From: Nonomuraea zeae
GTDB taxonomy: Bacteria; Actinomycetota; Actinomycetes; Streptosporangiales; Streptosporangiaceae
DNA length: 64,000 bases
Assembly (NCBI RefSeq): GCF_005889725.1
Contig: NZ_VCKX01000036.1
Span: 1 to 64,000 of the forward strand
Direction: 5' to 3'
Shown here: positions 29,267 to 47,655 of the stretch, piece after piece
Numbering within the stretch: the first letter of the stretch is position 1
Layout: every line of letters starts with the position of its first letter
Notes under the pieces: model-generated
What the model was told of the DNA's origin: nothing
Databases searched by the model: none
The model's input: only the letters and a program-made list of their open reading frames with translations
Position numbers and translations under genes: made by a program

Positions 29267-30541
29267 TCAGTCGCGCGGGTCCCAGCCGTCCGTGTCGACG
29301 TCCAGGTCGAGCTCGTCGGCGATGTCCTCCCACTTCGTGAACTTGAAGTTGGTGATCTCCCGGTCCCCCTCGGCCGGCGTGTTGACCCCGTCGTGGGCGA
29401 TGAAGACGCCCTCGTCGAAGTCGCCCAGGGGCACGTTGAGCACGGTCGAGCCGTCGCTGACCTCGACGCCGTCGATGCCGTTGTCCGCGCCGACCCTGAA
29501 CTGGCCGAGGTAGGAGTTGGAGCCCTCCCTGCGGTAGACGGCGAAGGTGTTGTCGCCCTGGCTGGAGGCCAGGAGGTAGCCCTTGCCGTCCTCGCGGTAG
29601 TAGATCGTGAGGCCTTCGGCGTCCGCGGTCAGGTGGTTGCCGCCGTAGCCCGGGTCGGCGCCGGGCGTGCACTCCTCGGTCGCGGGGTCGTACGTGCCGG
29701 GGACGCCGTACTCCCTGACCCTGTCCAGCAGCACTGGTGCGCCGGTGAGGTCGGCCCGCAGGCGCCAGATCCCGACATCCTCCTGCGCGGCGTAGAGAAC
29801 GTCCCGGTTCTGGTCCACGACCATGCCCTCGACCTGCGGCAGTTCGTCCGGCTCCAGGCACGGGGTCCACTGCTGGCCGTTGGGGAGGGTGAACGACGCG
29901 GGCAGGTCCAGCGTCCTGACGAGCTGGTAGCCGACCTTGCCGCCCGGCTTGGCCAGCAGCTTGACCAGGCCGACTGAGGTCGTGTGCCGGCGGCTGACCA
30001 GCGCGTACGTGCCGGTGGAGTCCTTCCACGCCCCCAGGCCGTACGCGGTCTCGCCGTCGTTGACCTGGCCCTGGGTGGTGTTGAAGACGAACGGCGCGGC
30101 CGGGTCGGTCACGTCGGTGAGGTGGCCGTTGGAGATGGAGTAGACGCGGAGCGTGTCCCGGCCCCGGTCGGAGACGATCGCGAGATCGCGTCCGCCGAAG
30201 CCGTAGGTGACGTCGACGTTGTTGAACCGGCCGGGCTCGTCGTCGGGCCCGGGGGCGGCGGGCGCCGCGATGTGCTGGAGCTGGTGCCCGGCGAGGTCGT
30301 AGACGTTGAGTCCGCCCTCCTTGGCCGTGGTGACCACCACGCTCTTGTCGGAGTCGGACGGATGCACCCAGATCGCCGGGTCGTCGCCGTTGGAGTTGCC
30401 GCCCGCTTCGTCGTCGTACAGGGCGGGGGTCTCAACGTCAGGATGCACCGTCGGGACGGTGGAGCCGGACGCGGGGACCGCCACCCCCGCTGCGAGGGTG
30501 AACATCAAGGCTGCCAGGGAGAGCCTGGGCAGGGGACGCAT
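29267..30541 (-). CDS. Secreted beta-propeller 3-phytase
   Basis: A 424-residue secreted enzyme that removes phosphate from phytate (inositol hexakisphosphate) with Ca. The N-terminus MRPLPRLSLAALMFTLAAGVAVP is a Sec signal. Family signatures: NGDDPAIWVHPSDSDKS, FNNVDVTYGF, YREDGKGYLLASSQGDNTF and NHLTADAEGLTIYY, all hallmarks of the six-bladed BPP fold. ATG 30541 follows GAGGAGGCGC. An operator dyad shared with the inositol operon lies 72 nt upstream. Its likely products are lower inositol phosphates and Pi, which fits the adjacent ABC, phosphate and inositol genes. Confidence 0.92.
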   Translation of the reverse strand: MRPLPRLSLAALMFTLAAGVAVPASGSTVPTVHPDVETPALYDDEAGGNSNGDDPAIWVHPSDSDKSVVVTTAKEGGLNVYDLAGHQLQHIAAPAAPGPDDEPGRFNNVDVTYGFGGRDLAIVSDRGRDTLRVYSISNGHLTDVTDPAAPFVFNTTQGQVNDGETAYGLGAWKDSTGTYALVSRRHTTSVGLVKLLAKPGGKVGYQLVRTLDLPASFTLPNGQQWTPCLEPDELPQVEGMVVDQNRDVLYAAQEDVGIWRLRADLTGAPVLLDRVREYGVPGTYDPATEECTPGADPGYGGNHLTADAEGLTIYYREDGKGYLLASSQGDNTFAVYRREGSNSYLGQFRVGADNGIDGVEVSDGSTVLNVPLGDFDEGVFIAHDGVNTPAEGDREITNFKFTKWEDIADELDLDVDTDGWDPRD

Positions 30542-30575
30542 TGCGCCTCCTCGTTCTGGGGGGAGTGATGAGGGG

Positions 30576-30604
30576 AACGTAACGACCATTTAACAAGAAA
30601 TCAA
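30576..30604 (-). promoter_or_regulatory. Phytase promoter
   Basis: On the minus strand TTGATT (30604-30599) and TACGTT (30581-30576) are separated by exactly 17 nt, a good vegetative-type promoter. The operator dyad at 30613-30632 sits 8 nt upstream of the -35. Confidence 0.6.
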
Positions 30605-45353: not shown

Positions 45354-46153
45354 TCCGCTGGATCGTGACAGACCTCGACGGTACCCTCGTCGGACGAGAC
45401 CTGGCCATGGTCCCCGCCAGCAGGGAGGCGCTGCGCCGCTTCCGTGAGGCGGGCGGCGAGGTCATCGTCGCCACCGGGCGCATGGAGAGCTCAGCCCGCC
45501 CTTACTACGACGAGCTGGGCCTGGACGCTGCCGCCATCCTCTACAACGGCGCCGCGACCGTGAACCTGGCGACGGGCACCGTGCTGCGCTCGCGCAACCT
45601 GTCGGCGACCGCGTGGAAGACGCTGCTCGGCCTGTTCGGCGAGCTCCCTGAGGGTGTCTACCCGGTCGCGTTCTCCGGTGGGGAGGCGCTGGCCGTACAC
45701 AACGTGCCCGAGCTGCGCGAGTACGCGAGGCGGGACGGGATCACGCTGCGCGATCCCGGGGACTGGGCGGCGCTGCCGCCCAACGAGATCACCAAATGCA
45801 TGCTCATCGGCGGCCCGCTCCCTGAACTGGACATCACGGGAACGGTCACGGTCCGCTCCGAGGCGACCTACCTCGAGGTGCTGGCGGAGCAGGCGACCAA
45901 GGGCAGCGCCCTGCGCGATCTGGCCGCGGCCAGGCGCGTGCCGATGGAGCAGATCGCCGCCATCGGCGACAACCCGAACGACCTCGACATGATCGCGGCG
46001 GCCGGAGTGGGGTTCGCCGTCGGCGACGGCCACCCGGATGTCGTCGCCGCGGCTGACTTCGTGGCCAGGGCCTGCGCTGACGGCGCGCTCGTGGACGTCG
46101 TGGAGCTGGCGTTCCGGTCCAAGGCGTGGGACGAAGGGAAGGGAGAGCTGTGA
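45350..46153 (+). CDS. Cof-type HAD phosphatase
   Basis: 267 residues from GTG 45350 (GTGA overlap). Motif I TDLDGTLVGRD with both Asp, motif II VIVATGR, motif III K in EQATKGSALRDLA, motif IV IGDNPNDLDMI. Cof-type proteins dephosphorylate sugar phosphates. It is the second HAD enzyme next to the inositol monophosphatase, so three intracellular phosphatases follow the transporter. Confidence 0.9.
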   Translation: MIRWIVTDLDGTLVGRDLAMVPASREALRRFREAGGEVIVATGRMESSARPYYDELGLDAAAILYNGAATVNLATGTVLRSRNLSATAWKTLLGLFGELPEGVYPVAFSGGEALAVHNVPELREYARRDGITLRDPGDWAALPPNEITKCMLIGGPLPELDITGTVTVRSEATYLEVLAEQATKGSALRDLAAARRVPMEQIAAIGDNPNDLDMIAAAGVGFAVGDGHPDVVAAADFVARACADGALVDVVELAFRSKAWDEGKGEL

Positions 46154-47655
46154 AGTCGGTCAAGCATTGGATCAATGGCGCCCGTGCGGACGGCGACGCC
46201 CGTTCCGCCGAGCTGTTCAACCCGGCGACCGGGGAGGTCAGCGGGCACGTCGCGCTGGCCTCGCCCGCCGACGTGGACGCGGCCGTGGCGGCCGCCGCCG
46301 CGGCCTTCCCCACCTGGCGCGACACCTCGCTGGTCAAGCGGGTCCGGGTGTTGTTCCGCTATCGCGAGCTGATGGAGGCCCACCGTGACGAGCTGGCCGC
46401 GCTGATCTCGGCCGAGCACGGCAAGGTGCATTCCGACGCGCTGGGCGAGGTAGCGCGCGGGCTGGAGGTGCTCGACTTCGCGTGCGGGATTCCGCACCTG
46501 CTCAAGGGCGCCTTCTCCGAGGGAGTCTCGACCCGGGTCGACTCCTACTCGATGCGTCAGCCGCTGGGCGTGGTGGCGGGGATCACGCCGTTCAACTTCC
46601 CGGTCATGGTGCCGATGTGGATGTTCCCGATCGCGATCGCGTGCGGGAACACGTTCGTCCTGAAACCATCGGAACGCGATCCGTCGGCGTCGCTGCTGAT
46701 GGCTCGGCTGTGGAAGGAGGCGGGGCTGCCCGACGGCGTGTTCAACGTCGTGCAGGGCGACAAAGCCGCTGTGGACCGGTTGCTCGAACACCCCGAGGTG
46801 CGAGCGGTCTCGTTCGTCGGCTCTACCCCGATCGCCAGATACGTCTACGAGACCGGCGCTTCGCACGGCAAGCGGGTGCAGGCGCTCGGCGGGGCCAAGA
46901 ACCACATGCTGGTGCTGCCCGACGCCGACCTCCACCTGGTCGCCGACGCCGCCGTGTCCGCGGGCTTCGGCTCGGCGGGTGAGCGGTGCATGGCGATCTC
47001 GGTGGTGCTGGCGGTGGAGCCGATCGGTGACGAGCTGGTACGGAAGATCGTGGAGCGGGTCGAGCGGCTGGTGATCGGGCCAGGCGACGATCCGAGGTCG
47101 GAGATGGGGCCGTTGGTCACCCGGGCGCACAGGGACAAGGTGGCCTCTTACCTGGACCTGGGGGTTCAGGAGGGCGCCACGCTCGTGGTCGACGGCCGCG
47201 ACACCATCGTGTCCGGCGGTGGCCGGGCCGCGGAGACGCCCGGGTTCTGGCTGGGCCCGACCCTGCTCGACAACGTGCCCGCCGGCTCACAGACGCATGT
47301 GGACGAGATCTTCGGCCCGGTCCTGTCCGTCGTGCGGGTGGCCTCGTACGATGAGGGGCTGAAGGTCATCAACGACTGCGAATACGGCAACGGCACGACG
47401 ATCTTCACCAGCGACGGCGGCGCGGCGCGGCGGTTCCAGAGCGAGGTCGAGGTCGGCATGGTCGGCGTCAACGTGCCGATCCCGGTGCCGATGGCCTTCT
47501 ACAGCTTCGGCGGCTGGAAATCCTCGCTCTTCGGCGACACACACGTGCACGGCACGGAGGGCGTCCACTTCTACACCCGTGGCAAGGTCGTCACCTCCCG
47601 CTGGCCCGACCCCTCGCACGGCGGCGTGAACCTGGGCTTCCCGACGAACGCGTAG
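46150..47655 (+). CDS. iolA: Malonate-semialdehyde/methylmalonate-semialdehyde dehydrogenase (CoA-acylating)
   Basis: 501 residues from GTG 46150 (GTGA overlap). Converts malonic semialdehyde to acetyl-CoA and CO2, the last step of inositol degradation. Motifs: GITPFNFPVMVPMWMFPIA, SFVGSTPIARYVYE and the nucleophile Cys in GSAGERCMAIS, with C-terminal GWKSSLFGD typical of MmsA/IolA. It closes the run begun by iolG. The 177 nt that follow (47656-47832) show no gene. Confidence 0.93.
   Translation: MKSVKHWINGARADGDARSAELFNPATGEVSGHVALASPADVDAAVAAAAAAFPTWRDTSLVKRVRVLFRYRELMEAHRDELAALISAEHGKVHSDALGEVARGLEVLDFACGIPHLLKGAFSEGVSTRVDSYSMRQPLGVVAGITPFNFPVMVPMWMFPIAIACGNTFVLKPSERDPSASLLMARLWKEAGLPDGVFNVVQGDKAAVDRLLEHPEVRAVSFVGSTPIARYVYETGASHGKRVQALGGAKNHMLVLPDADLHLVADAAVSAGFGSAGERCMAISVVLAVEPIGDELVRKIVERVERLVIGPGDDPRSEMGPLVTRAHRDKVASYLDLGVQEGATLVVDGRDTIVSGGGRAAETPGFWLGPTLLDNVPAGSQTHVDEIFGPVLSVVRVASYDEGLKVINDCEYGNGTTIFTSDGGAARRFQSEVEVGMVGVNVPIPVPMAFYSFGGWKSSLFGDTHVHGTEGVHFYTRGKVVTSRWPDPSHGGVNLGFPTNA

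Follow-up and report, generated by a model that had tools for sequence, protein, structure and literature searches.

A putative inositol-phosphate utilization regulon joining phytase, ABC importer and inositol catabolism genes in Nonomuraea zeae

Related systems

The systems closest to the gene set considered here are importers of phosphorylated compounds and clusters of inositol catabolism genes. The gene set lies in a stretch of 64,000 nucleotides of the Nonomuraea zeae genome (contig NZ_VCKX01000036.1, positions 1 to 64,000; hereafter the window) and comprises genes for a secreted phytase, the binding lipoprotein, fused permease and ATPase of an ATP-binding cassette (ABC) importer, a GntR-family regulator, inositol catabolism (iol), a PiT-DUF47 pair for phosphate transport and three phosphatases. 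Based on comparative sequence analysis we regard it as fairly probable that these genes constitute an inositol-phosphate utilization regulon in which phosphorylated inositol is the imported form. In the following, the own genome is that of N. zeae, and counts given for the cassette refer to window-like gene sets.

In the available passages of its description AfuABC is an importer of hexose phosphates (PMC4546632). It resembles the system in the window in its Cluster D fold, as recognized by profile, and in the intact import of a phosphorylated cyclic polyol, which is the principle proposed here. The likeness is at the profile level only, and in the window the importer, with its proposed ligand, is linked to phytase, inositol-monophosphatase-family phosphatase (IMPase), HAD phosphatases, PiT-DUF47 and iol genes. 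A second relative of AfuA, P5PAB, likewise imports a phosphorylated nutrient whole (PMC8427247); its cargo, pyridoxal phosphate, is a vitamin and not a carbon source, and the word "phosphatase" is absent from the main text of that paper as available. The IolCatGC clusters share iolG, E, C, B, D and A and the aldolase with the window, and the available passages on them name no phytase or importer of phosphorylated inositol as part of the cluster (PMC9430895). In the Caulobacter module inositol genes are under one regulator with a common cis sequence, as in the window, but the regulator is an RpiR-type IolR, the transporter is HlyB-type and, in the parts of the paper available, phytase appears in the reference list only (PMC2597717). 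The GntR-type repressor IolR of Corynebacterium glutamicum, so called in passages of PMC12298647, is similar to the proposed regulator in that it represses inositol genes; here the operator also precedes phytase and importer genes, and the likeness of the regulators is one of type and motif.

A cluster on pSymB of Sinorhizobium meliloti (U8C39_14960-15010) shares a related binding protein, permease, ATPase and IMPases with the window. It differs by two binding proteins, a LacI regulator in place of GntR, DSP and metallophosphoesterase genes, and a Na/Pi transporter in place of PiT; the gene order in this locus (L174) is IMPase-DSP-metallophosphoesterase-Na/Pi transporter-LacI-permease-ATPase-two binding proteins-IMPase-DSP, and its permease is annotated as an iron transporter.

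The literature on the gene set, on inositol phosphate uptake and on phytase regulation was searched at the level of titles, abstract starts and passages, in a collection that lacks most subscription papers, and no description of the set was found, in agreement with the initial annotation, which knew of none as one regulon. The nearest published remark is the suggestion of the Caulobacter authors, in the passages available, that one transporter of the stimulon may carry derivatised inositol, e.g. inositol phosphates (PMC2597717). In contrast to the present case, a 2026 study of pig-gut isolates reports, in its available passages, no conserved phytase-gene neighbourhood across genera (PMC12838507).

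Operator and putative regulon

The candidate operator is the palindrome ATGTCNNGACAT, which was first noticed by reading the printed promoters; GTNTANAC was also tried as a GntR motif and gave no useful sites. With at most one mismatch the palindrome occurs three times in the window: before the phytase gene as the perfect palindrome ATGTCAGGACAT (30617..30628), in the divergent promoter of the binding protein and GntR genes as TTGTCAAGACAT (31976..31987) and, as found by a pattern scan of the window, before iolG as ATGTCAGGACAA (32844..32855). A weaker operator-like site, TAGTCAGGACAT (8/10; 32053..32064), was read from the promoter sequence before GntR, a gene that is bordered by operators on both sides. 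The motif of the C. glutamicum IolR is reportedly KGWCHTRACA, which fits TGTCATGACA.

For counting, sites with at least 9/10 matches within 300 bp upstream were considered at 25 loci, leaving out locus L023 and some repeats from the same genome. The operator was found upstream of the phytase gene in 14/22 cases, of the binding protein gene in 15/23, of GntR in 11/17 (often the same divergent region) and of iolG in 10/17. Among the pooled upstream regions of iolE, iolC, aldolase, iolB, iolD, iolA, DUF47, ATPase, HAD and Cof genes it was present in 0 of 138. The few sites at other inner genes were located before PiT (2/18; L030 and L037, which have no iol genes, so that PiT comes first), before the permease gene (1/21; the broken copy L021) and before an IMPase gene (1/19; a second IMPase gene divergent from GntR in L041). 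Two sites in L021, one before the binding protein gene and one 95 bp before PiT, remained uncounted because the reading frames of this locus are broken. In alignments of chosen promoters, all from Streptosporangiaceae, the site was a conserved island, invariant in 12 binding-protein promoters and conserved with one variant in 11 phytase promoters.

The operator also stays with genes that lie apart from the cassette. It was retained at detached phytase genes about 6 kb away (L121 in genome G170) and on another contig (L122 in G084, 9/10), and at a detached iolB on another contig in G118. Among the 12 genomes of the own family with a binding protein at least 54% identical (carriers), the site preceded the phytase gene in 10; in G131 there was none, and in G169 the phytase gene is downstream of the binding protein gene on the same strand. 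As a control, one phytase locus from each of 46 family genomes that bear a phytase gene but not the cassette was searched within 350 bp upstream for sites of at least 9/10. The operator was present at eight of these, exactly those whose fetched stretch contains a GntR, IMPase, HAD, Cof or iol gene at least 60% identical to its counterpart in the window, and missing at the other 38 (in one of these an IMPase match of 33% lies about 3 kb off).

The own genome contains five perfect sites in 13.6 Mb, one before the phytase gene and one at a second iol cluster, while the other three have neither cassette nor iol genes as neighbours. In five relatives the number of perfect sites ranges from 3 to 7, and every one of these genomes has such a site at the phytase gene. 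Among five separate iol clusters, L119, L126 and L128 have a pre-operon operator. Since the operator is at the cassette promoters and at detached genes and is missing at 38/46 other phytases, the genes for phytase, importer and inositol catabolism are probably united in a single inositol regulon. An operator before each unit that moves with its genes was found in Streptosporangiaceae, and the pattern is weak in Actinomadura. From its promoter, the phytase itself seems to follow inositol. Negative regulation of Streptomyces phytase has reportedly been described (Boukhris, 2016), so that a repressor of such enzymes may already be known.

Two further arrangements were observed around phytase genes. 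Locus L124 (G025) combines phytase, iolG-E-C-aldolase-B-D, HAD and Cof genes with the operator, and the binding protein was not found in that genome. In L156 and L170 the phytase gene adjoins a PiT-like gene (about 30% identity), and the rest of the cassette is not there.

Conservation of the gene set

The co-occurrence of the genes was analysed in 200 genomes drawn from the own family, with binding-protein matches counted at E <= 1e-20. The binding protein was present in 15 of them: the own genome and ten others at 81-85% identity, one at 54% and three at 30-32%, the last three being counted among the 188 non-carriers. Phytase was found in 58 of the 200 genomes, i.e. in 12/12 carriers and 46/188 others (Fisher 1.5e-7, with genomes that are not independent), and lies within 10 kb of the binding protein gene in 11 of the 12 carriers, the two being on separate contigs in G084. 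For iolC (E <= 1e-60) the corresponding numbers were 116 of 200, 12/12 and 104/188. The cassette iolC is the sole genome match (E 1e-60) in eight of the 11 carriers besides the own genome; in G084 and G169 iolC is only away from the cassette, and G131 has two copies.

When public genomes were scanned with the alignment of the binding protein, at least 78 loci were obtained. Those with at least 49% identity were combined with the G genomes into a set of 24 actinobacterial genomes, merging same-genome repeats (L038, L039, L040) and excluding the broken copy L021 of the own genome. The binding protein was present in all 24, phytase in 22 (in 21 next to the cassette, in G084 on a separate contig), the permease in 21, ATPase, HAD and IMPase in 20 each, Cof and iolG in 19 each, PiT, DUF47 and GntR in 18 each, iolE in 17, iolC and aldolase in 15 each, iolB in 10, iolD in 9 and iolA in 4, with many of the gaps being locus or contig ends. 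In A. fibrosa the phytase gene sits on a different contig.

The conserved linkage anticipated by the initial annotation was thus recovered across genera, but iol neighbours are not obligatory: there are none beside the cassette in N. dietziae, N. soli and G084, and just iolG and aldolase genes in G169, gaps that look real. Although the order of the genes is strongly shuffled among relatives, both those that have iol genes and those that do not, the set is retained; this favours a joint function over an inherited neighbourhood. In a draw of 396 genomes from the phylum the binding protein was found at E 1e-60 in two (the own genome and a relative at 30% that lacks the cassette), which makes the system rare in this sample. 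Six phytase loci outside the family, five of them from one genus that is presumably Streptomyces, had no cassette neighbours except a LysR match in one, and no operator of at least 9/10 in the 4.2-4.3 kb around the phytase gene.

The own genome has two additional loci of relevance. L021, on contig C301, is a second phytase-binding protein-PiT-DUF47-permease copy, 60-86% identical by pieces and with internal deletions; it is either a duplicate in decay or comes from a second strain (the assembly has 13.6 Mb and 8.8% contamination). L119, on contig C748, is the second iol cluster, with iolD-B-aldolase-C, another ABC transporter and a perfect operator between them.

Proposed mechanism

Beta-propeller phytases usually halt at lower inositol phosphates. 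Outside the cell the phytase would strip phosphates from phytate, and the lipoprotein, fused permease and ATPase may then bring in the remaining phosphorylated inositol. The last phosphates would be taken off by the predicted cytoplasmic HAD, IMPase and Cof phosphatases, roles suggested by family and linkage, and inositol would be burned by the known pathway of iolG-E-C-aldolase-B-D-A. PiT-DUF47 would carry phosphate over the membrane, in our proposal outward because growth on inositol phosphate leaves surplus phosphate. GntR, presumed to bind ATGTCNNGACAT, would shut phytase, importer and iol genes jointly until released by an inositol intermediate as the putative inducer.

A more specific version is offered tentatively, as one possibility with a minority chance of being right: the organism may feed on phytate for its carbon, the phytase halting at about InsP3, the importer bringing in this multiply charged product intact, each of HAD, IMPase and Cof removing one phosphate, iol enzymes burning the ring and PiT-DUF47 exporting surplus phosphate. 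In some rhizobial counterparts PiT-DUF47 is replaced by the unrelated Na/Pi transporter. If true, the bacterium would release phosphate to soil while feeding on phytate; to our knowledge no dedicated bacterial importer of inositol polyphosphates has been reported before, and the one in the window would be the first.

Phytate is a major organic phosphorus store in soil and is mostly regarded as a source of that element. A conserved regulon in which a phytase is apparently controlled by inositol, alongside importer and catabolism, suggests that some soil actinobacteria feed on phytate for its carbon and not for phosphorus alone, which would change when phytase is made and where phosphate goes. 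The proposal would also give a cargo to an importer group with at least one member, that of S. meliloti pSymB, annotated as an iron transporter.

Cargo of the importer and alternative explanations

Phosphorylated inositol is proposed as the import form because three cytoplasmic phosphatases are co-encoded with the importer and because IMPase linkage extends to distant relatives. Among the matches listed, relatives of the binding protein at 33-44% identity, mostly from Proteobacteria, have an IMPase gene in the locus in 19/31 cases (one about 9 kb away), while among the weaker matches listed (L082-L113; partial alignments at 24-33%, some of them from short contigs) it was 0/32. Rhizobial loci add DSP-like phosphatases and a metallophosphoesterase, and among the matches listed 8/31 encode a Na/Pi transporter, for which the PhoU domain was confirmed in the case of L052 alone. 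The presence of an unrelated phosphate transporter in like surroundings suggests that phosphate handling is part of the function. In the tree the actinobacterial cassette proteins form a group of their own (96/96 support), separate from one in which Proteobacteria are joined by Microbacterium.

Several observations weigh against this proposal. Shuffled windows average 0.91 operator sites and 9/100 shuffles reach at least three, so that the window by itself is weak evidence for the operator. In Actinomadura loci the operator is clear before GntR alone, and two of the five separate iol clusters (L125, L129) have no operator at 9/10. The Actinocatenispora locus, as far as it is in view, shows no PiT-DUF47, a gap that looks real. 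The IMPase has its top score with the HisN model, under the cut-off of that model, and IMPase and HAD families act on many substrates. Some phytase loci keep the operator and GntR, and some of these HAD, Cof or IMPase, without this importer (L127, L140, L142, L148, L150, L158, L162), and in L127 (by Pfam) and L150 (by eye) an RbsB-type transporter is present instead; the phosphatases may therefore act without the importer or be leftovers. Double control of the binding-protein promoter by inositol and phosphate is also possible, in view of the repeats described below.

The most probable of the alternatives, though still an unlikely one, is that the cargo is a different polyol or sugar phosphate ester, such as glycerophosphoinositol or a hexose phosphate, with phytase and iol genes tied to the importer by shared inositol regulation only. 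The initial annotation called the binding protein AfuA-type, which proved too strong: the solved structures that rank first in profile searches bear the name of iron-binding proteins, AfuA (4r72) comes further down (E 1.9e-8 and 5.4e-9) and it was not found with the close binding-protein alignment at E 0.001, so the protein is a remote AfuA relative only. According to the available passages AfuA binds glucose-6-phosphate (PMC4546632) and pyridoxal phosphate is bound by an AfuA relative at 54% (PMC8427247), which indicates that ligands change easily in this fold. In AfuA the sugar is contacted by His205, Asp206 and Glu229 and the phosphate by Ser37 and Thr150. The metallophosphoesterase and DSP phosphatases of the rhizobial clusters also fit another ester, as does a well supported proteobacterial subclade (L063, L064, L071, L075-L077, L080) without IMPase nearby, which probably has another cargo. 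These points are opposed by the partners that the binding-protein clade has acquired. Phytase joins it in two lineages, Actinomycetota and Paracoccaceae (a beta-propeller phytase is encoded in the related loci of Yoonia and Tritonibacter); in a search of 28 genomes with such loci phytase was present in 11, six of which are actinobacterial cassette genomes. The iol genes join it in Microbacterium too, where the related binding protein, permease, ATPase, HAD and two IMPases adjoin iol genes (L059, L062), a pairing that is apparently independent.

Alternatively, free inositol may enter by this or another transporter after phytase and further outer phosphatases have stripped everything, the inner phosphatases serving another role. 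This would agree with the pairing of the operator and an RbsB-type transporter in the importer-less L127 (and by eye L150) and with the different ABC transporter beside the operator at the second iol cluster of the own genome. We judge it improbable, as in 19-20/24 genomes the importer genes are accompanied by those of three phosphatases that, judged by eye, have no signal peptide, and the cassette iolC is the only match in the 8/11 relatives mentioned above.

The whole set could also serve phosphate scavenging under PhoP, with carbon as a by-product. The evidence for this consists of PHO-box-like elements, i.e. pairs of GTTCAYC units 11 bp apart, for which the consensus was widened from GTTCACC to GTTCAYC after the first scan. 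Candidate direct repeats adjoin the operator both before the binding protein gene (31944..31972, minus strand), where the element lies beside the operator, and before iolG (GTTCATCAATGGTTCATC, 32866..32883, plus strand). Scores of at least 11/14 were reached upstream of the binding protein gene in 13/21 loci, iolG in 7/16, GntR in 6/17, phytase in 3/22, Cof in 2/16, PiT in 1/17 and the permease in 1/19, and, the ATPase gene apart, upstream of none of the remaining inner genes scanned. At 12/14 or more the numbers were ten for the binding protein, four for iolG, two for GntR, one each for phytase, PiT and Cof, and zero for ATPase and permease. However, ATPase upstream regions, taken as background, also reach 11/14 (6/17), and the phytase promoters, which control the step freeing most phosphate, rarely do so and carry the inositol-type operator instead; control of the whole set by PhoP thus has a low probability.

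That the importer carries ferric iron and merely stands beside inositol genes, as the iron-binding names of the nearest structures and the annotation of the S. meliloti permease might suggest, is highly improbable and was rejected, since the adjacent Tyr-Tyr iron ligands that ferric-binding proteins of the FbpA type carry are missing in 34/35 aligned relatives, the window protein included, and the genes are linked to phosphatases and phytase.

Taken as a whole, the earlier interpretation of the locus as a system for importing and burning phosphorylated inositol is partly supported.

Gene content of the locus

All genes named in the initial annotation are at their places in the window and were confirmed by Pfam and NCBIfam profile searches; their co-occurrence exceeds chance. 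The description as one overlapping run holds from iolG to iolA, with a gap of 25 bp ahead of the permease gene, and does not extend to the phytase and binding protein genes, which are on the minus strand and divergent from GntR-iolG-E-C-aldolase-B-D-PiT-DUF47-permease-ATPase-HAD-IMPase-Cof-iolA on the plus strand, with their own promoters, nor across the 86 bp between GntR and iolG.

The secreted beta-propeller phytase (29267..30541, minus strand; PF02333, 198 bits) has an open reading frame (ORF) opening at 30589, a likely start at MRPLPRLSL and a signal peptide as judged by eye, and was aligned to the Bacillus beta-propeller phytases 1poo/3amr, with which it has the family profile and propeller motifs in common. 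The solute-binding lipoprotein (30710..31882, minus strand; SBP_bac_8/11) has an ORF opening at 31966, a likely start at MRRTAKII and a lipoprotein signal, again judged by eye. The proposed inositol regulator (32089..32829, plus strand) belongs to the GntR family (HutC/PhnF kind), with all profile matches under the curated cut-offs; a minus-strand ORF of equal length was rejected as it has no Pfam match.

The remaining genes are on the plus strand. The iolG-like inositol dehydrogenase (32916..33887) was recognized by Pfam, its best NCBIfam match being myo_inos_iolG (275 bits, under the cut-off of 355). It is followed by the iolE-like TIM barrel gene (33695..34726; PF01261 and position; true start probably near 33.88 kb), the iolC-like PfkB kinase gene (34723..35685; PF00294), a Cgl0159-like aldolase gene in the iolJ position (35678..36559; PF22649, 412 bits), iolB (KduI/IolB; 36433..37377; PF04962; true start probably near 36.55 kb) and iolD (37374..39212; TPP enzyme domains). 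With the iolA-like semialdehyde dehydrogenase gene at the end of the run (46126..47655; PF00171, 476 bits; assigned by family and position), the inositol catabolic core of iolB, iolC, iolD and iolE plus iolG and iolA is complete in the locus (iolE and iolA by family and position, iolG by its best model under the cut-off).

Between them are the genes of the PHO4/PiT-family phosphate transporter (39212..40192; PF01384) and its DUF47/PhoU-like partner (PhoU_div; 40189..40848; PF01865), the fused ABC permease (40874..42700; BPD_transp_1 in two stretches; best NCBIfam match PhnU2, 147 bits against a cut-off of 593) and the ABC ATPase (42701..43798; PF00005). The three phosphatases are a HAD phosphatase of family IA (43795..44559; Pfam/NCBIfam), the IMPase (44550..45353; PF00459, 192 bits), which retains the E-E, DPIDGT and WDxAAG stretches (metal and phosphate motifs), and a Cof-type HAD-IIB phosphatase (45350..46153; Pfam/NCBIfam); all three begin straight at their domains, with no signal peptide seen.

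On the low-coordinate side of the phytase gene, a tRNA-Pro gene, a tyrosine integrase gene (25425-26762) and a 43-bp near-copy of the 3' part of the tRNA (28649-28691) mark a small integrated element (window positions 25285-28691). That the cassette is carried by this element was considered and rejected: the att-like repeat ends at 28691, just short of the phytase gene, which places the cassette outside it.

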